Shown: positions 20,844-31,019, counted from the stretch's first letter. The stretch: 64,000 nucleotides of DNA from Lachnospiraceae bacterium (GCA_022794035.1 JAAWDX010000007.1:62001-126000); one strand, 5' to 3'. Notes: a model not told the origin generated them from the sequence alone. Numbers and translations are program-made.

Positions 20844-20870
20844 AGAAAATCTTCATTGCGGTTTTTATTT
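20831..20870. terminator. Bidirectional terminator between folT and the XRE gene
   Basis: A perfect 16-bp stem (AAAACCGCAATGAAGA with its complement, 3-nt loop) is flanked by A and T runs, so it can serve both convergent genes. Confidence 0.9.
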
Positions 20871-21137
20871 TATATCTTTTCTCAATTCTTCCAGTAGCTC
20901 TCTTACATTTTTTAAAAACTTAATTGAGTCATCGCATTCATATGCCAGAAATAAGATAAAAGACACTGTACCACACATATTTTCTCCCTTCTCAATATTG
21001 CAATATGTTCTTCTCTCAATCGCTAACTTCTCAGCCATCGCTTCTTGTGTCAGGGATCTTTCCTTTCTTGTCATTTTAATCTCTTCACTTAAGTACTGCT
21101 TGAGCAAGCTTACATATAAATCTCTTATTTCTTTCAT
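20865..21137 (-). CDS. XRE-type helix-turn-helix regulator
   Basis: A 90-residue protein. The central HTH is RSLTQEAMAEKLAIERRTYCNIEKG (split here: recognition helix around IERRTYCNIEKG), typical of Cro/CI-type regulators. I choose the ATG at 21137, 6 nt from AGAGGTG. The C-terminal part is a short helix-rich tail. It is monocistronic, between a terminator and a 54-bp dyad (21143-21196) that overlaps both its leader and its ribosome-binding site. The target is unknown; autoregulation is a reasonable inference. Confidence 0.8.
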   Translation of the reverse strand: MKEIRDLYVSLLKQYLSEEIKMTRKERSLTQEAMAEKLAIERRTYCNIEKGENMCGTVSFILFLAYECDDSIKFLKNVRELLEELRKDIK

Positions 21138-21142
21138 TACAA

Positions 21143-21196
21143 ACACCTCTCATTCTGAATAAAATTTAATTAAATTTTACTCAAAACAAGAGGTGT
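21143..21196 (-). promoter_or_regulatory. 54-bp dyad upstream of the XRE gene
   Basis: An inner perfect 18-bp palindrome (21161-21178, AAAATTTAATTAAATTTT) and outer arms ACACCTCT (21143-21150) / AGAGGTGT (21189-21196) share exactly the same centre. The outer arm includes the gene's AGAGGTG ribosome-binding site. It may be an operator, an RNA hairpin sequestering the RBS, or both. Confidence 0.55.
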
Positions 21197-21231: not shown

Positions 21232-22449
21232 TTACTGAATCTGTCGACATTCCAAATAATATCGTTTTTCCTGCGCCTTGCCCATGGAAAATGTTTTCCT
21301 TGGCAATACTCCATCTTTCTCTATTCCTTTAAATAGCTGCTTTTTCTCCATTGCCGGCAATATAAATCCAATTGCATTTCTTTGATCAGCAAGTAACTTC
21401 AGCTCATAATCTCCATGAATATATTCCAATCTTCCTTTGTGATGGTTCAAATATTCATCCAGAAATTTTTGTAAAATTCCCACCGCAAGCTCTCCCATAG
21501 ATGGATCCAAGTAAAGCGTCCCTTTTTTTCCTTGGACATGCCATTCAATCGGATATCCCTCCTTAGCACTGCATTGTATTGTAAGCATTTCTAAAAGCTG
21601 CATCGCCTCCGTATCAAATACAATTCGATGAATCGGTTCAAACACCTGTGTCTCGTCATGAATATTTTCTAGCTCCACCATGGCATATCTTGCCGGATGC
21701 GCAGATAAATCCTCTTTTGGATGCTCTTTCTTCAATCTTTCATAGCAGGCCTTTGCTGTTGCCAGAGAATGGTTGCCATCCCCCACGGCAAAAACTACAG
21801 AGCTTTTTCTTTCTTCTTGATAGCGCCTTAATGCCTCTTCAAATTCTTTCAAAACACTACCTTCTACAAGCCAGCCGGCAAGCTCTCCGCCCTCTTCCAT
21901 TAAGGAAAAATGATAAAGCTGCTTTAACAGTTCTTTTTGCGCTGCAATAGGCTCTATCAACGTTTTTTTCTTATCATCACACAGTAAAAGAACATGCGGA
22001 AGCTCCAGTTCTGCATTCCATCTCACTTTCATTCTCGGCGGAATACGCTCTACCACAGTTTTCTCTGTACAACGAATAGGCGCTAGCGCCCCTTCCATGT
22101 ATTCATATTGTTCCAGATCAATCTTCCCGATAATTCCTTTTCGAATTTCCCCATTCATCAGTGTTCTTTCCACATAGATAAGGCAATTCTCATACTTAGC
22201 AAACAGCCCTTCCTGCAAATATTCTTTCATTTTCGCATGAATACCTGCAATTTTTTCCTCTTCTCCGGCCTGACCAAGCTCTGCTTCAGGCAAAATCATA
22301 TGCAGCGTTGACGGTGCATCCGCTACTTTTTCTCTGACTCTTCTCCAATATTCTGGCTGCGCTGAAAACTGATCACAAGCAATCACTGACCATCTCTCTA
22401 GATCGTGCACTTGAGGCAACAAAATTGTTGCTGGTAAAAATAGATCCAT
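21232..22449 (-). CDS. DUF1015 family protein
   Basis: A 405-residue protein of the DUF1015 family. The conserved FAVGDGNHSLATAKACYE motif (about 220-237) is visible, with ERWSVIACDQFSAQPEYW near the N-terminus. The function is not established. From memory, DUF1015 genes often sit beside serA/serC in clostridia, hinting at phosphoserine metabolism. Here it ends the LicD-containing unit, 18 nt after the opine-dehydrogenase-like gene, which makes it a candidate partner for the CobD-like fusion. The ribosome-binding site is GGGAG. Confidence 0.85.
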   Translation of the reverse strand: MDLFLPATILLPQVHDLERWSVIACDQFSAQPEYWRRVREKVADAPSTLHMILPEAELGQAGEEEKIAGIHAKMKEYLQEGLFAKYENCLIYVERTLMNGEIRKGIIGKIDLEQYEYMEGALAPIRCTEKTVVERIPPRMKVRWNAELELPHVLLLCDDKKKTLIEPIAAQKELLKQLYHFSLMEEGGELAGWLVEGSVLKEFEEALRRYQEERKSSVVFAVGDGNHSLATAKACYERLKKEHPKEDLSAHPARYAMVELENIHDETQVFEPIHRIVFDTEAMQLLEMLTIQCSAKEGYPIEWHVQGKKGTLYLDPSMGELAVGILQKFLDEYLNHHKGRLEYIHGDYELKLLADQRNAIGFILPAMEKKQLFKGIEKDGVLPRKTFSMGKAQEKRYYLECRQIQ

Positions 22450-22467
22450 CCTTAAACTCCCATTTTT

Positions 22468-23547
22468 TTACCGCAGGTAAAAGTTTTTAAAACTTTGATA
22501 ATCATAAATCCCATATTGAGAATACTGAAACTTTTGGGGATTTTGAGTTAATTGATAATACCATTGCAGAACCTTTGTCATATGAGGAACAAATATATCT
22601 ACAAAACATGCAATCTGATGTAAAATTTCCAGTCCATATGGAAAATCTGCTGTAAAATAACGCGACGAAAAATCCGGTATGAGCTGATGTTCTTTTCCTA
22701 CTGTTGGCGTAGGCAACCCCTTTAAACTATCAATACTTCTTAATTTTTTTGTTAATGCTTGTACCGTAGTGCTCTCATAATGCACCTTTAATGATTTAAC
22801 ATAAGAAAGATCAAACTCTTTCATATTCTTACAAAGCTGCTGCACCTCTTCATCGCATTTTAAAAGTAGCTCTGAAGATGCATCATCCCATTCTTCATAA
22901 AACAATGGGATATAATCATATTGTTTTCCCTGTTCATATTCCTTAAACAAGGTATACAGTCTTGTTGTATGCAAAATCGGATTGGAAGGGGTCAAGGTAA
23001 CATTTAAATAATTCGGTAACGGATTAGTAGGCATATCCAAAAGCTTTGTCATTATATGACAACATATCTTTGTTTTTTCCTGTGGAATTGCTGCAAGAAA
23101 TAATTCAGGCCGATATCCCGTCGCACATACTTTTTTCCCGTAAGTTACCAATCTTGCAACTGAAGGGACTCTTTGTAATCCAAATACAATACATCCCTTA
23201 TTTAAACATCCAATGAAACAACACTCTCCTCCGCCTGTTCCCGGAATTAAGCCAATCATTGCATCAGACTTACTATATCTTTCGATCTTCTTGGAAATTT
23301 CTTCCATACAGTATGCTGGAAGCGTAATCAAAATCATATCTGCCTCAGAAAATGCAATTTTCTCATCATTAGTTGCTAATTGAATTTTCCCCTCGCAGGT
23401 AATATTTCCGCTTTCATCTACAATACATAAATACTGTTCAAACTGACCGGGTTTCGAAGTGAATATAGTTACATCATGCTGTTTAGCCGCACAATGAACC
23501 GCTAATTGCGTTCCAATATTCCCTCCCCCCACAATTGTAATCTTCAT
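22468..23547 (-). CDS. NAD/NADP octopine/nopaline (opine) dehydrogenase family protein
   Basis: A 359-residue two-domain dehydrogenase. The N-terminal Rossmann motif is ITIVGGGNIGTQLAVH; the catalytic C-terminal domain contains NPILHTTRLYTLF, matching the NPxxH pattern of the opine dehydrogenase family. I use the ATG at 23547 with GGGAG 8 nt upstream. Family members reductively join an amino group with a 2-keto acid. It follows the nucleotidyltransferase/PLP fusion directly in a polysaccharide locus, so a role in building an unusual amino-acid-like decoration is plausible but unproven. Confidence 0.85.
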   Translation of the reverse strand: MKITIVGGGNIGTQLAVHCAAKQHDVTIFTSKPGQFEQYLCIVDESGNITCEGKIQLATNDEKIAFSEADMILITLPAYCMEEISKKIERYSKSDAMIGLIPGTGGGECCFIGCLNKGCIVFGLQRVPSVARLVTYGKKVCATGYRPELFLAAIPQEKTKICCHIMTKLLDMPTNPLPNYLNVTLTPSNPILHTTRLYTLFKEYEQGKQYDYIPLFYEEWDDASSELLLKCDEEVQQLCKNMKEFDLSYVKSLKVHYESTTVQALTKKLRSIDSLKGLPTPTVGKEHQLIPDFSSRYFTADFPYGLEILHQIACFVDIFVPHMTKVLQWYYQLTQNPQKFQYSQYGIYDYQSFKNFYLR

Positions 23548-23567
23548 CTTGAATACTCCCATATAAA

Positions 23568-25379
23568 TTAATGCAATATCTGCTTCAAAGCTCTATATAA
23601 CTGATCATTTTCCTCTGTGTTCCGAATAGCAATACGAATAAATTGCTTTCCTTGTTTGATTTTTGCAGACAAATCTTTAATAAACAGATTATGCTCTATT
23701 AGCAGCTTTTTAGTTAATGCTTTCGCTGTCATCCCATTCACTAATTCAATCATAATATAATTAGCTTGAGAGGGAATCAAACGTAGCGCATTTATTTCAC
23801 TCAGCTTTTTTTCAAACCGAACTCTCTCTTGACGAATCTTTTTAAGGCCTTCTTCATAATCCTTTTTGTATTTTTCCTCAATTTGCATGTAAAATTCTGC
23901 AAAGGAATTAATATTCCAAATTGCAACGTCCTTTTTCATTTTCAGAACCATATCTACATCGCCTGAAACTAAAACGCCAAGACGCAGTCCCGGAACACCA
24001 TATGATTTTGATATGCTTTTCATTACATATAGATATGGATTAGCCTCAATAAATTTCTGACATATCAACGTGCTATCTTCTTCATCTGCAAAATCAACAA
24101 AAGATTCATCTACAATCAACCGAATTTTTCTATTTTCTGCCCAGCTAACAAGCCGCTTCAAATCTGCTTTCGGGATATAATTCCCTGAAGGATTATCTGG
24201 ATTAATCAAGATTAAAGTCTCAATAGGTTTATCATCAAAGAAATCTATTAGATCCTGCGCGGTATAAGAATAATTCATATTTTGAGGCTCATACGTAATT
24301 AATTTTCCCTCGCAATAACGATTAGGATATTCTTCAAAGGTAGGCCGTACTACTCCAATATTTCCTTCCAAACGCTCCAATAAAGCTTTAATTAGCTCTG
24401 CTGCTCCATTGCCAATTACAATATTTTCCTGATGTACACCAAAATTTTTCGCTGCCAACAAAGAATTAACTCCCATCCCTGAGGGATACTGAGTCAGCAA
24501 TTTTTCAAAATTCGCTTTGATCTCATCCATCAATTTTTGCGGCGGATAATAGGGATTTACTAAATAACAAAAGTCCAGCAGCTTGGGATATCGCCAATAC
24601 CCTCCATATCGCTTCTGTAATAAAGACACCTTCTCCTCTTCATCGGGACTGAACATAGACGTAGCAATGTCCAAATCCTGTATATCATCAATTTCATACC
24701 AAAGCTGCCCGTTTAAGCGTTTAGCAAAAATTTCTGGATTATCTAACATAGTAATAACTCTTAATACCTGTTCGTAATACTCATTATCTCCCAGCGCCTT
24801 TGTATAAGCTTCTAAAAATGGTACGTAATGCGTCTCTGAAAAATGCTTGCTAAATTTATAAATATTGACAGTTTTATAATATGCCTTAATTTCATTAAAT
24901 TTAAACTTTTTCCCTGGTACAAAAGCTTCAATCGTATCATCGTCTCCTAATTTAACACAGGTACCATCCATCCAGCTTTCATATTTGTCAACCAAAGCTA
25001 ACGTTTCTCTTGGATCATTGACTAATGCTTCAATGACTGAATCTTCAAAAATTAAATCCGACTCAAATAAAAGCGTATCTTCTTCACAAAGATATTGCTT
25101 TGCCAAAGCAAGTGAATAAATATTATTTGTTTTATCATAAATTGGATTATTCACATACATAATCGGAGTCTGAATATCCAGTGTAGCAATATAATCTATT
25201 AGCTTTTTCCCTTCATAACCGACAACAATAATGATCCTTGTCAGATTTTGTTTTTCCAGTTGGTGCAGCATACGATCAATTAAAGTAACTCCATTTACTT
25301 GAACCATACATTTGGTATTGTTTTGCGTCAGCTCCTTTAATCTTTTCCCCATTCCCGCTGCTAATATAATTGCTTGCAT
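23568..25379 (-). CDS. Fusion: LicC-like nucleotidyltransferase + CobD/HisC-like PLP enzyme
   Basis: A 603-residue fusion. Residues 1-about 245 are a sugar/choline-phosphate nucleotidyltransferase: AIILAAGMGKRL at 3-14, then YVNNPIYDKTNNIYSLALAK and LWYEIDDIQDLDIA, as in LicC. Residues about 255-603 are a fold-type I PLP enzyme: NPDNPSG near 393, VDESF near 423, PLP lysine in SISKSYGVPGLRLG (K458) and RIAIR near 582. PGLRLG, IWNINSFAEF and RIAIR look closer to CobD-type phospho-amino-acid decarboxylases than to HisC. I start at the ATG at 25379 (AGAGG at 8 nt). I infer CDP-amino-alcohol synthesis. Confidence 0.85.
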   Translation of the reverse strand: MQAIILAAGMGKRLKELTQNNTKCMVQVNGVTLIDRMLHQLEKQNLTRIIIVVGYEGKKLIDYIATLDIQTPIMYVNNPIYDKTNNIYSLALAKQYLCEEDTLLFESDLIFEDSVIEALVNDPRETLALVDKYESWMDGTCVKLGDDDTIEAFVPGKKFKFNEIKAYYKTVNIYKFSKHFSETHYVPFLEAYTKALGDNEYYEQVLRVITMLDNPEIFAKRLNGQLWYEIDDIQDLDIATSMFSPDEEEKVSLLQKRYGGYWRYPKLLDFCYLVNPYYPPQKLMDEIKANFEKLLTQYPSGMGVNSLLAAKNFGVHQENIVIGNGAAELIKALLERLEGNIGVVRPTFEEYPNRYCEGKLITYEPQNMNYSYTAQDLIDFFDDKPIETLILINPDNPSGNYIPKADLKRLVSWAENRKIRLIVDESFVDFADEEDSTLICQKFIEANPYLYVMKSISKSYGVPGLRLGVLVSGDVDMVLKMKKDVAIWNINSFAEFYMQIEEKYKKDYEEGLKKIRQERVRFEKKLSEINALRLIPSQANYIMIELVNGMTAKALTKKLLIEHNLFIKDLSAKIKQGKQFIRIAIRNTEENDQLYRALKQILH

Positions 25380-25458
25380 GTTTTGATCCTCTCTATTTTC
25401 ACAAGTATTGTTCAATTATTTTTCTAAAATGCAAATTATATGTAACATCTGTTTCAAT

Positions 25459-25467
25459 ATTATATCA
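25459..25467 (-). promoter_or_regulatory. Extended -10 promoter element upstream of the fusion gene
   Basis: Minus strand TGATATAAT (25467-25459) lies in a 191-nt AT-rich gap between the flippase gene and the fusion gene. No good -35 is seen, but an extended -10 can suffice. The fusion, opine-dehydrogenase and DUF1015 genes could therefore be transcribed separately from licD. Confidence 0.45.
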
Positions 25468-25570
25468 TATATTCTCAACCGCCGTCTATTATAATTTAAA
25501 TAACTTTCTCCTTTTTAGCATCTTACACTTTTTAGCCAATTGATTTTTATCACGTAATCGATTTTCCTGC

Positions 25571-26803
25571 TCAATTAAAATTTCTTTTCAAAACACTTTT
25601 TAATGTAATCAATAGTAGCATAATATTAACTCCCGTTGCCAACAAAATCACATAATTTACCCCATTCATTCCAAAACTCTCAATAAAAATTCTTGAAAAA
25701 AATGCCACTAGCAATACTGATGTTAAATTAACCAAAACAATGGTTTTTAAGCATCTTGCTATCGTCAAGAGAGCACTCAAAAAATAAATACATGCCAATG
25801 ATAATGTAGTCAATAACACAGGTATTAGTAAATTTGAATACTGAACTATCTCCTCATTAAAAAGAATTGTCAACCCCCACTTGCCAAATATCTTGCTAAT
25901 AATAATTACCGTAACAAAAACTAGAAAAATCATTTTCCAGACTTTATGATATTGTTTCATATATTTTTCTTTTTCTTTTTCTACATAATATTTAGTAAAA
26001 AAGGTTATGAGAGGATTATATATCCAACTAGCCGCTGTTTGCACTATTACTGCAGGTGTAGCAATCGACGCATATATCCCTAGATAGTAATTACCATACA
26101 CCGCTTCTAATGTATTTCTCGGAATAGATACCAGACTACTTATTAAAAATGAATTCATCATTAACGGCAGACATTCCTGCATTAATCGTAGGCTTTGTTT
26201 ATAGCTAAAAATAATAGAAAAATTTTTTATTTTTTTACAAATATTATAATCATATATAAAAACTATAAGAGCTGATACACAAGTCATGCCAATAATTGCA
26301 AATATAAGTTTTTTGGTAAAATATAAAAATATGCAAAATACAAAAAAAGATAAAACTCCTCTACTAATAAAGGAATAACAGATATAATCCATCCTTTCTT
26401 GTTTTTGCTGTATTCCTTGTAAAACATCCACAAATGCTTCCATAAGCCTAAATAACATATATATAATTATACACAATATTTGATAACTTGTATAACTTCT
26501 ATTAGACACTACAAAAATAGTACATAAACTCAAAGCTAAGATACTAGTTATAATCCTCGTTGTAACGTAAATAGACACTGAATATTTCTCTTTATAATCT
26601 GAAACTTGAAAATTACGAATTCCAAATGTAGCTACCGTAAAAAACATATTTGTGATCGAGATTGCTAAAGACAAATTTCCCGCTTCTTCATATGATACAA
26701 TTTTTACAATAACAACTGTAATCAACCACTGGCACCCTAAATATACAGCAGCTCCAATTGAATTATAAATCGTATTTTTTTTAATCGATAATACCTTATC
26801 CAT
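25571..26803 (-). CDS. Wzx-type oligosaccharide flippase
   Basis: A 410-residue protein with about 12 membrane helices and the N-terminal pattern KKNTIYNSIGAAVYLGCQWL typical of Wzx/RfbX-like flippases. It would move an undecaprenyl-linked sugar or repeat unit outward. The gene is very AT-rich and overlaps the GT8 gene by 8 nt. The larger locus also has an ABC exporter, so this flippase may serve a side-chain donor or a separate glycan. Confidence 0.88.
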   Translation of the reverse strand: MDKVLSIKKNTIYNSIGAAVYLGCQWLITVVIVKIVSYEEAGNLSLAISITNMFFTVATFGIRNFQVSDYKEKYSVSIYVTTRIITSILALSLCTIFVVSNRSYTSYQILCIIIYMLFRLMEAFVDVLQGIQQKQERMDYICYSFISRGVLSFFVFCIFLYFTKKLIFAIIGMTCVSALIVFIYDYNICKKIKNFSIIFSYKQSLRLMQECLPLMMNSFLISSLVSIPRNTLEAVYGNYYLGIYASIATPAVIVQTAASWIYNPLITFFTKYYVEKEKEKYMKQYHKVWKMIFLVFVTVIIISKIFGKWGLTILFNEEIVQYSNLLIPVLLTTLSLACIYFLSALLTIARCLKTIVLVNLTSVLLVAFFSRIFIESFGMNGVNYVILLATGVNIMLLLITLKSVLKRNFN

Positions 26804-27797
26804 TTTCCTTGCTTCTTTCTTTTACTTTTTTAGCCCTAATCTTCATAAATAAAGGAATTAAAAAATCTATTATTTTATATCTTATATATGGAAATGGCTT
26901 TAAAATTACTAGAAACATCTTATATAAAACAAAATATAATTCCCAACCTGTTTCCAATTCAGTATTTTTCCATTCCGTCTTGTTTAAATATTTAAAATAA
27001 TCCTTCTTATACTTATGCGTGGTTCCCTTTCGCCAAGGTCTTTCTTCTCCTAAATAATGAACAATAATAGGATCCTTTTTGGCTATTTGATATTCTTCTT
27101 TAGAAATATATCCAGCAGGCTCATTTAATTTTTTTAAAAATCTATAGGGATAGTACCAGAAAATATTATATGCATTATATTTAGGCGAAAGAACATATAT
27201 ATTCCCTTCTAAAGCTCCATTAATAGCATCCTGATCCGGTGCAAAAAGTCTCCCCTGCTTATTACTGTAGTATTTTAAAATCTTCTTTCCAGTACCTTCC
27301 GCTCTCCATCTTTCCAAATTAATTAATAAAACCCCAGAATTAAAATATGATTTTCCTTTTAAGCCCAGGCTCTCTTTGCGTTTTTTATTAACAGTTGGTT
27401 CAATAGATGCTCCAAGTACGACATCCTCCATATCTATTTCCCAAAGTTCTTGCAGTGCCCCCCTTACAATAGTATCTCCATCCAAATAAATAACCTTGTT
27501 TACTTCTAAAGGTAATAAATCATCAATAAGTAATCTTGCTAAAACAACATTTTTCCACCCTAAAGTATCAAAATCAAACCCGATTTTATCTTTCAAATTA
27601 CTTATATCAACAAAAAACAACTGCCTTTTGTATTTAGAAGCTAAATCAAGTAATCTTATTTTATTTCCTTCAGATATATTATAAGCTCCAATATAAAAAC
27701 AAAGAACATCTAATTCTTTATTATTTTCACAAACAGAACATATCCCGGCAGCAATCTGTGGAACAAAATTATCATCTGAAGTATAAAAAATATTCAT
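26796..27797 (-). CDS. Glycosyltransferase family 8 protein
   Basis: A 333-residue GT-A-fold retaining glycosyltransferase. The DxD metal motif is in KVIYLDGDTIVRG (about 100), followed by YFNSGVLLINLERWR and DQDAINGAL, both GT8 hallmarks. Galactosyl- or glucosyl-transfer is usual for the family, but the sugar is not assigned. It has a strong AAAGGGAG ribosome-binding site, starts 12 nt after licD and overlaps the flippase gene. Confidence 0.92.
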   Translation of the reverse strand: MNIFYTSDDNFVPQIAAGICSVCENNKELDVLCFYIGAYNISEGNKIRLLDLASKYKRQLFFVDISNLKDKIGFDFDTLGWKNVVLARLLIDDLLPLEVNKVIYLDGDTIVRGALQELWEIDMEDVVLGASIEPTVNKKRKESLGLKGKSYFNSGVLLINLERWRAEGTGKKILKYYSNKQGRLFAPDQDAINGALEGNIYVLSPKYNAYNIFWYYPYRFLKKLNEPAGYISKEEYQIAKKDPIIVHYLGEERPWRKGTTHKYKKDYFKYLNKTEWKNTELETGWELYFVLYKMFLVILKPFPYIRYKIIDFLIPLFMKIRAKKVKERSKENG

Positions 27798-27808
27798 TTC
27801 TTCTCCCT

Positions 27809-28672
27809 TTATTCATCAAAATTTAAAACAGCTGGCGCATGTACATGTCTTTTTTCAACAGGCGGTAATTGCATATAGTCATTATATATTTTTTCCAAAT
27901 ATAAATGATAATTATTAGGAAGAGGAATTTTCGTATTCTCAAACTTTTTCCATACAACCGGAAATAATTCATCTTCGCCATGAGTTATTTTTTTGACACC
28001 CTCAAAGTTATTTTCTGAATATACTTTGGGTACTCCATTACACTCAACCATCTTTTCACATTTCTTAATTTCTTTCAGATACGCTTTGTACACTCTTGTT
28101 GTTGTAACATTAAATATTTTGAGAAAATAATAACTCAATCTGCATAAAATCTTCGTTATTTTTCTCTTCCATTCGCTCATCTGTCCTGGAAGTTTAGGCG
28201 ATTTATATGCGCTTAAAACACAAAGCCGAGTCAATATCCATTTTTTCCAAATCTGCATTTTCCTTTTATGTTCTTTTTGATATACTATGTCCAAAGGAAA
28301 AATGTCAATAAAGATACCTGATTTATATGTTCTGTCTTGGTCTGTAGCCTCTATAAAAGTTGTATTTGCTCGAGTCAGCTTTGCAAAAGTCATAACATAT
28401 CCCTTTGTTTCTCTAATCTCTAAAAGCTTAAAAGTATCTTTCAACTCTTTAGAAGCTAAGTCGACAAATTTTTCATAATCCCCTCTTGGCATTGCAACGT
28501 CCATATCATCATCCCAGGGAATAAAGCCCTCATGTCTCACAGCACCTAAGGCAGTCCCGTAGCATGCAAAAAAATTCAAATCATACTTTTCACATATTCT
28601 GACAAATTCTTGATATATTTCTAGCTCAACACTTTGCAATTTCTTCAAAGTTTTTTCATCATACGCTTCCAT
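27809..28672 (-). CDS. LicD family phosphotransferase
   Basis: A 287-residue LicD-family protein. The hallmark region is visible near residues 35-60: ACYGTALGAVRHEGFIPWDDDMDVAMPR, with the metal-binding acidic cluster (given here as key residues W-D-D-D-M-D). LicD enzymes transfer phosphocholine or similar groups from CDP carriers to glycans. It is the first gene of its unit, preceded by a long structured leader. No licA (choline kinase) or licB (permease) is seen nearby; the nucleotidyltransferase/PLP fusion downstream may supply its donor. Confidence 0.9.
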   Translation of the reverse strand: MEAYDEKTLKKLQSVELEIYQEFVRICEKYDLNFFACYGTALGAVRHEGFIPWDDDMDVAMPRGDYEKFVDLASKELKDTFKLLEIRETKGYVMTFAKLTRANTTFIEATDQDRTYKSGIFIDIFPLDIVYQKEHKRKMQIWKKWILTRLCVLSAYKSPKLPGQMSEWKRKITKILCRLSYYFLKIFNVTTTRVYKAYLKEIKKCEKMVECNGVPKVYSENNFEGVKKITHGEDELFPVVWKKFENTKIPLPNNYHLYLEKIYNDYMQLPPVEKRHVHAPAVLNFDE

Positions 28673-29942: not shown

Positions 29943-31019
29943 TTATTTTCTAAACCTATCCATATTTTGCATCGTACTTGCTTCTTCTAATGGTAATTTA
30001 ACCGGACAATGCTTTCGGGCTGACTCATATATTGCTAGAATCAATTCCAATGCCCTTTTTCCAGCATATCCATCTACTAACGGTTCTTTATTTTCTTCTA
30101 TAGATTCTATCATATTTTTATATAATGGAGTGTGCCCAAAACCATATACATTCTCAGGATCTTCATCGCATTGCTTTTGAAGCTCTACTAATTTTTCCTC
30201 TTCTCCTTTGACATTCCATACTTCAATATGGTTTACAGACATTCCCCCTGCTTTAACGGTTCCCTTTTCTCCAAAAATATGTAGTGTCTCTTCTAGTCCA
30301 TCAGGGTATACATTAGTACTGCCTTCAAAAATACCATATGCTCCATTTGCAAATTTAATGATAGCAAGCCCTATATCTTCTGCTTCAATATACGGATGAA
30401 TTAAATTATCACTGTAAGCAATCACTTCTTCAATTTCATCTCCCATCATCCAACGCAATAAATCTGCATCATGAATACATTGATTCATTAAAGCTCCACC
30501 ATCTTGTTTCCATGTTCCACGCCATGCATCTTGTGCATAATACGCTTCTCCTCTATACCATCTTACATGAGCAGTTCCATACAATAGCTTACCCAGCTTT
30601 CCCACGTTTATCGCTTCATGAATTGCTTTAATCGCTGGATTAAATCGATTTTGATGATTCGTACAAACCTTTACTTGATATTTTTCTGCCTCTTCGATGA
30701 TTTCATCTGCGTCTTGTATCGACAATGCAATTGGTTTTTCTATAATCACATGGTTTCTCTTTCTAATTGCTTCTAACGCTATTTTAGCATGTTCTCCGCT
30801 CCATGTAGCAATCGCTACTAAATCCAAATTTTCTTTTGTAAACATCTCAATATAATTTGTATATATTTTCACCGATTCATCTAAACCATTGTCTACTTTA
30901 AATTTTTCTGCTTTTTCTTGATCTAAATCACAAATCGCCACAATTTGCAAATTATTTTGCCTAGCAGCCACAACGTGATTAGGTGCCACTCTTCCACATC
31001 CAACTAATGCGTATCTCAT
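29943..31019 (-). CDS. Gfo/Idh/MocA family oxidoreductase
   Basis: A 358-residue NAD(P)-dependent sugar oxidoreductase. The N-terminal Rossmann motif is VGCGRVAPNH, the family EKP motif appears as HVIIEKPIALS (about 95), and the C-terminal domain contains GGALMNQCIHDADLLRW with its catalytic His. In polysaccharide loci such enzymes oxidise or isomerise nucleotide sugars at C3, for example in UDP-aminosugar or uronate pathways. The substrate here is not determined. It is the last gene of the unit and overlaps the DUF2304 gene by 4 nt. Confidence 0.9.
   Translation of the reverse strand: MRYALVGCGRVAPNHVVAARQNNLQIVAICDLDQEKAEKFKVDNGLDESVKIYTNYIEMFTKENLDLVAIATWSGEHAKIALEAIRKRNHVIIEKPIALSIQDADEIIEEAEKYQVKVCTNHQNRFNPAIKAIHEAINVGKLGKLLYGTAHVRWYRGEAYYAQDAWRGTWKQDGGALMNQCIHDADLLRWMMGDEIEEVIAYSDNLIHPYIEAEDIGLAIIKFANGAYGIFEGSTNVYPDGLEETLHIFGEKGTVKAGGMSVNHIEVWNVKGEEEKLVELQKQCDEDPENVYGFGHTPLYKNMIESIEENKEPLVDGYAGKRALELILAIYESARKHCPVKLPLEEASTMQNMDRFRK

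Follow-up and report, generated by a model that had tools for sequence, protein, structure and literature searches.

A CobD-like and LicC-like fusion enzyme beside an opine dehydrogenase: a candidate route to N-modified phosphoethanolamine decoration of surface glycans in gut Clostridia

The window analyzed here is a 64,000-nucleotide stretch of DNA from a Lachnospiraceae bacterium (GCA_022794035.1 JAAWDX010000007.1:62001-126000), of which positions 21232-28672 hold six genes on the minus strand, read in the order LicD, GT8 glycosyltransferase, flippase, a nucleotidyltransferase-pyridoxal phosphate (PLP) enzyme fusion, an opine-dehydrogenase-family protein (ODH) and a DUF1015 protein (Table 1). 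This layout, including the LicC-like and PLP fusion, had been described in an earlier note made from the sequence and was confirmed by open reading frame (ORF) calls and Pfam. The locus is a candidate for a route in which the fusion would make cytidine diphosphate (CDP)-ethanolamine and ODH would cap its amine before transfer by LicD.

Table 1. Coordinates, strand and basis of the features discussed
Feature	Coordinates	Strand	Basis and proposed role
Fusion enzyme: LicC/PntC-like nucleotidyltransferase + CobD-like PLP enzyme	23568..25415	-	Pfam, NCBIfam, alignments, AlphaFold2 model
Fusion, N-terminal half, nucleotidyltransferase	about 24630-25379	-	
Fusion, C-terminal half, CobD-like PLP enzyme	about 23568-24632	-	
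ODH, opine-dehydrogenase-family protein (PF02317)	22468..23562	-	Pfam, model, alignment; proposed reductive N-alkylation of an amine with a keto acid
DUF1015 protein, divergent subfamily	21232..22449	-	Pfam, neighborhoods; possible phosphoserine supply or handling
LicD	27809..28672	-	Pfam; proposed phosphotransferase, CDP-activated group to glycan
GT8 glycosyltransferase	26796..27797	-	Pfam; proposed acceptor glycan assembly
Polysaccharide flippase (PF01943)	25571..26803	-	Pfam
Promoter-like site TAGACG-18-TATAAT, TG ahead of the second hexamer	25459..25488	-	Consensus match only

Pfam E-values were 8e-44 for LicD (150.8 bits), 2e-43 for GT8, 2.5e-15 for Polysacc_synt, 1.6e-27 for Octopine_DH and 5.5e-56 for DUF1015, while the single 615-aa ORF of the fusion matched both NTP_transf_3 (1.1e-10) and Aminotran_1_2 (6.6e-32). 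That ORF was called from a TTG at 25415; the true start is likely the ATG at 25379 (codon 13), upstream of which GAGAGG resembles a ribosome site. Fusion, ODH and DUF1015 are spaced by 5 and 18 bases. Because the gap of 155 bases between flippase and fusion holds the promoter-like site, these three genes may form their own transcription unit, transcribed apart from LicD, with the reservation that promoter-like sites were not in excess across the region as a whole. The genome, 2.3 Mb and 98% complete, contains a single LicD.

The fusion is a real gene, as homologues in other genera retain both domains at 43-76% identity. Full-length fusions in that identity range occurred in 6 of the 95 other genomes compared from the same genus, family and order. 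Across the phylum the fusion was rare: at E 1e-60, a sample of 398 genomes gave 3 with it, the window's genome among them. A scan of GTDB contigs returned 557 candidate relatives, and the best 80, at 66-75% identity, were kept; most came from metagenome-assembled Clostridia of gut and rumen, and the isolates included Butyrivibrio sp. AE3009, whose locus has an OCD-family gene, and Schaedlerella arabinosiphila, whose locus has no recognized amine modifier. Fusions 68-73% identical also occurred in assemblies labelled Treponemataceae, Coriobacteriales and Selenomonas (L063, L050, L101, L107), reflecting either gene transfer or binning error.

The NCBIfam ranking of the PLP half placed CobD (174.5 bits) above HisC (TIGR01141, 144.9 bits against a curated cut-off of 276.55), both under their curated cut-offs. 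In the AlphaFold2 model (mean pLDDT 90.9), the structural matches of the PLP half were tied between Salmonella CobD (1lkc, Z 36.2) and SMUL_1544 of Sulfurospirillum multivorans (6oux, Z 36.0), while among solved sequences SMUL_1544 was the best match, at E 4e-50 versus 3e-27 for CobD. The PLP-binding lysine K469 (fusion residues are numbered as in the structure model, one lower than in the ORF) was present in 81 of 82 fusions. Alignment revealed four motifs common to the fusion and SMUL_1544, CYLxNPY, YPS, KSxSK and WNIN, which in Salmonella CobD read SANINPLG, YPD, RSLTK and WSVN; these positions were invariant or nearly so across the 82 fusions. The motif set was not found in 23 stand-alone homologues, which show YPD and no CYLxNPY; the PLP domains of the fusions formed a clade separate from them. 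Model and sequence together liken the PLP half to CobD and not to HisC, the choice that had been left to structure prediction, and a HisC role was rejected on a score below both CobD and the cut-off.

SMUL_1544 reportedly governs norcobamide synthesis, going by the title of work by Keller et al. from 2016, and we take it to decarboxylate phosphoserine. The linker in norcobamide is ethanolamine, not aminopropanol. Cj1436, encoded in the capsule locus of Campylobacter jejuni, is an established decarboxylase that forms ethanolamine phosphate from serine phosphate (PMC12409886). The earlier note had named phosphoethanolamine and phospho-aminopropanol side by side; we infer from the SMUL_1544 motifs that phosphoserine and phosphoethanolamine are favored over phosphothreonine and aminopropanol.

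The nucleotidyltransferase half scored 42.4 bits against a Pfam cut-off of 27, and its best solved relatives were LicC (1jyk) and PntC (6pd1), in keeping with the LicC-like assignment first made. A Foldseek search with the whole fusion gave PntC-AEPT as the top match, but the domain arrangement differs (TM 0.37). PntC places Glu104 and Glu196 close to the primary amine, and their counterpart in LicC is Asp (PMC6697681). E117 and E214, invariant in the fusions, apparently occupy the PntC Glu positions, where pairwise alignments shift by one; the match is weak evidence on the substrate, and the pocket residues were rejected as proof of it, the Glu pair being nonspecific with respect to LicC-helix-turn-helix (HTH), LicC-LicA and phosphoenolpyruvate (PEP) mutase-linked domains.

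In line with the original description, no LicA choline kinase passed the cut-off in the genome: the best PF01633 match scored 25.8 bits against a cut-off of 29. CbiB (PF03186) had no match in the genome, and PEP mutase had no family match in it at 98% completeness. Phosphocholine, cobamide and phosphonate roles are therefore disfavored, and the cobamide and phosphonate roles were rejected for the window's genome.

ODH scored 96.8 bits against PF02317 (cut-off 30), and the structural matches of its model (pLDDT 94) were tied, at Z 38.4 for octopine dehydrogenase and Z 37.5 for N-(1-carboxyethyl)norvaline dehydrogenase. H198, R301 and D306, invariant in 27 ODH sequences, align with H212, R324 and D329 of octopine dehydrogenase, the last being presumably the Asp of its His-Asp pair. 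In octopine dehydrogenase, R324 is the NADH sensor, the His-Asp pair is a proton relay and His212 coordinates the carboxyl of the amino-acid substrate (PMC2924402). A supported clade held the 27 fusion-adjacent ODHs and just one other member, from G428. The locus of that member (L205:4883-11350) has no fusion; its TagD-type cytidylyltransferase is fused to a Gfo/Idh domain, and it also contains two LicD genes, a PhnW-like transaminase and an OCD-family reductase. It may represent a parallel route to an activated amine.

The co-occurrence of fusion and ODH, whose absence the earlier note had named as counting against its idea, was strong. Of 80 scored loci (window included), 25 had a same-strand ODH no more than two genes away from the fusion. 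The expected number was about 0.05, given about 150 ODH copies among 398 genomes and an assumption of 2,500 genes per genome; chance clustering was thereby rejected. On the fusion tree (FastTree), ODH presence required 16 changes, 11 of them forced by supported branches, so that, by this phylogeny, ODH is gained or lost repeatedly beside the fusion. Close pairs on the tree differ in partner: L061 has an OCD-family protein and L087 an ODH, and L055 has a GNAT protein and L088 an ODH. The partners at the place of ODH in other loci were an OCD-family protein (nine), GNAT (four) and a methyltransferase (four), and none of 71 loci combined ODH with any of these within three genes (5.5 expected, P 4e-4). 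Since they are mutually exclusive at the same place, the simplest reading is that the four are alternative modifiers of one amine. LicD, often adjacent, was near the fusion in 20 of the 71 loci; a CDP-glycerol-phosphotransferase-like protein was there in 13, and no locus had the two together.

The place of DUF1015 was harder to define. Among 54 fusion-carrying genomes, SerC (TIGR01364) was present in 45 (above the cut-off in 43) and DUF1015 in 51, lying within 8 kb of SerC in about 15 of the 54, with the order SerC-SerA-DUF1015 in the loci sampled. DUF1015 adjoins the fusion in the window's genome (G000), where it follows ODH, and in G001, G088 and G488. SerC was absent from three of these four genomes versus 6 of the 50 others (Fisher p 0.012; two of the four belong to one genus), the three being G000, G001 and G088, which are 91-98% complete. 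The window's protein belongs to a divergent subfamily, at 17-20% identity to the canonical one, which in G015, of the same family as the window's genome, directly follows SerC and SerA (L210). Two very different DUF1015 subfamilies were each observed directly after SerC-SerA (L151:1492-2721, L138:1237-2484, L210:6635-7849). By these neighborhoods, the proposed role of DUF1015 in supply or handling of phosphoserine fits; it is the weakest part of the proposal, because just 4 of about 87 loci have the gene beside the fusion. The window's subfamily also adjoins unrelated genes elsewhere, and comparison with solved structures and Pfam ParB, with the ParB-fold free serine kinases SerK and SbnI in mind, gave no profile match, both of which speak against the role. 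DUF1015 was thus rejected as a fixed partner of the fusion and, at the profile level, as a recognizable serine kinase.

Gene content, folds, conserved residues, and a gene association that is both repeated and mutually exclusive form the observed basis of the following proposal. The PLP half would decarboxylate O-phospho-L-serine to phosphoethanolamine, and the nucleotidyltransferase half would combine this with cytidine triphosphate (CTP) to give CDP-ethanolamine, a part of the route that we consider likely. Phosphoserine would come from SerC in most fusion genomes and may be supplied by DUF1015 in the window's genome, in which SerC was not found. ODH would reductively join a 2-keto acid, most likely pyruvate, to the amine before or after activation by CTP, yielding an N-(1-carboxyalkyl)ethanolamine phosphate group, and LicD would move the modified phospho-group from cytidine monophosphate onto a surface glycan assembled with GT8 and moved by the flippase. 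In other lineages, where an OCD-family reductase, a GNAT protein or a methyltransferase stands in the slot of ODH, the amine would probably be capped differently. For the whole route, from CDP-ethanolamine made by the fusion through keto-acid capping by ODH to LicD transfer, we infer substrates, products and order of steps, and we hold it to be somewhat better than an even proposition. The broader idea, of a modular tagging system in gut Clostridia with a fused CDP-ethanolamine maker, no choline or ethanolamine uptake and an exchangeable amine-capping enzyme that lets tag identity and charge be swapped between lineages, is offered more tentatively, as a possibility that falls a little short of even.

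Several points weigh against this proposal. The PLP half reached 176.7 bits against CobD TIGR01140, short of the curated cut-off of 290.55, and its fold is also compatible with transamination. The Glu pair also occurs in neighboring LicC-HTH proteins and so decides little. By analogy with octopine dehydrogenase, caution is needed over ODH, as phosphoethanolamine does not have the carboxyl that His212 coordinates. The co-occurrence statistics are uncorrected for relatedness, and the tree alone accounts for kinship. In about 30 of 80 loci, no recognized amine modifier lies within two genes of the fusion, and the locus L032, sister to the window's and its nearest relative, has LicD-fusion-DUF1015 and no ODH.

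The last two observations also lend support to a plain phosphoethanolamine decoration, with ODH acting on another part of the glycan, for example by converting an amino acid to an N-(1-carboxyethyl)amino acid amide, as does the use of amino acids by relatives of octopine dehydrogenase. However, ODH directly adjoins the fusion, only a few bases away, and other possible amine modifiers do not share that place with it; we regard this alternative as unlikely, although it is the likeliest of the rivals. Less probable still is that the PLP half is an aminotransferase that, for example, would convert dihydroxyacetone phosphate to serinol phosphate as Cj1437 does, from which the fused domain would make CDP-serinol. 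The fold family is the same and Cj1437 acts in a capsule locus, but CobD outscored HisC, and of the proteins compared SMUL_1544 was closest in both sequence and motifs. Use of phosphothreonine, with CDP-aminopropanol as the product, appears improbable: CobD is the best-scoring named family, but the motifs match those of the norcobamide enzyme SMUL_1544 and not Salmonella CobD, and the genome has no CbiB. A phosphonate version, running from phosphonoalanine through aminoethylphosphonate to its cytidine monophosphate form, is very improbable in a genome lacking PEP mutase, even though PntC-AEPT is the closest known architecture and five loci, all in a group marked by 60KD_IMP-sulfatase proteins, have a PEP-mutase fusion close to the CobD-like fusion.

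The route via CDP-ethanolamine and amine capping resembles several known systems in part. PntC-AEPT Tde1415 (6PD1/6PD2, PMC6697681) also places a LicC-like cytidylyltransferase ahead of a PLP enzyme in one protein and activates a small phospho-amine, aminoethylphosphonate, for a proposed cell-surface use; its PLP half, however, is a class V transaminase of a phosphonate pathway, whereas the fusion carries a CobD-like class I/II enzyme (PF00155, not PF00266) in a genome without PEP mutase. SMUL_1544 (6OUX), to which the PLP half is nearest among solved sequences, works in the synthesis of cobamides with an ethanolamine linker, but it stands alone in a cobamide locus, whereas the window's enzyme is fused and lies in a glycan locus of a genome without CbiB. 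Cj1436, likened to the PLP half by its described reaction, likewise makes ethanolamine phosphate for a capsule (PMC12409886), but it is unfused and its product forms an amide with glucuronic acid rather than being CDP-activated for LicD. The lic phosphocholine pathway (LicA, LicB, LicC, LicD) shares LicC-like activation and LicD; in the window's genome, by contrast, no choline kinase exceeded the cut-off, and the phospho-amine probably arises by synthesis in place, not from choline taken up by the cell.

The earlier note had raised the possibility of an unusual zwitterionic decoration. N-[(R)-1-carboxyethyl]ethanolamine phosphate (R-Cet-EtnP), the same kind of group as predicted here, is a component of an O-polysaccharide of Proteus mirabilis (PMC9630907), albeit a Gram-negative O-antigen, so that the predicted group is chemically plausible and the product type is not new. 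No genes for its biosynthesis in Proteus were named in the literature found, and a partial literature search covering few subscription papers returned no description of the fused route with swappable partners. If the proposal is correct, hundreds of gut and rumen Clostridia would possess a self-contained pathway for making N-modified phosphoethanolamine groups, which, like phosphocholine, would alter surface charge and probably antigenicity. The proposal would also give the glycan-locus ODH clade a candidate function and provide a lead on DUF1015.

Other genes recur around the fusion. Proteins joining an N-terminal winged helix to a LicC-like domain lie near it in L034, L044, L074, L093, L111, L113 and L115, some of them also joined to a choline-kinase domain (examples L115:7301-9070, L093:12963-13868). 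An MptE-like protein and a CTP_transf_3 cytidylyltransferase directly 3' of the fusion, with an OCD-family gene preceding the fusion, were observed in L038 (4499-6686) and L039. In L090, L097, L105, L106, L110 and L112, tandem 870-aa proteins combining 60KD_IMP (YidC-like) and sulfatase-family domains flank the fusion on both sides (example L112:14527-17148), and those loci also contain a CDP-glycerol-phosphotransferase-like gene. Within the window, a 20-bp inverted repeat at 21146-21193 has DUF1015 on one side and a small HTH gene (20865-21146) on the other. A Gfo/Idh/MocA oxidoreductase is encoded at 29943-31019, and its homologue lies three genes before the fusion in L032, L099 and L102.

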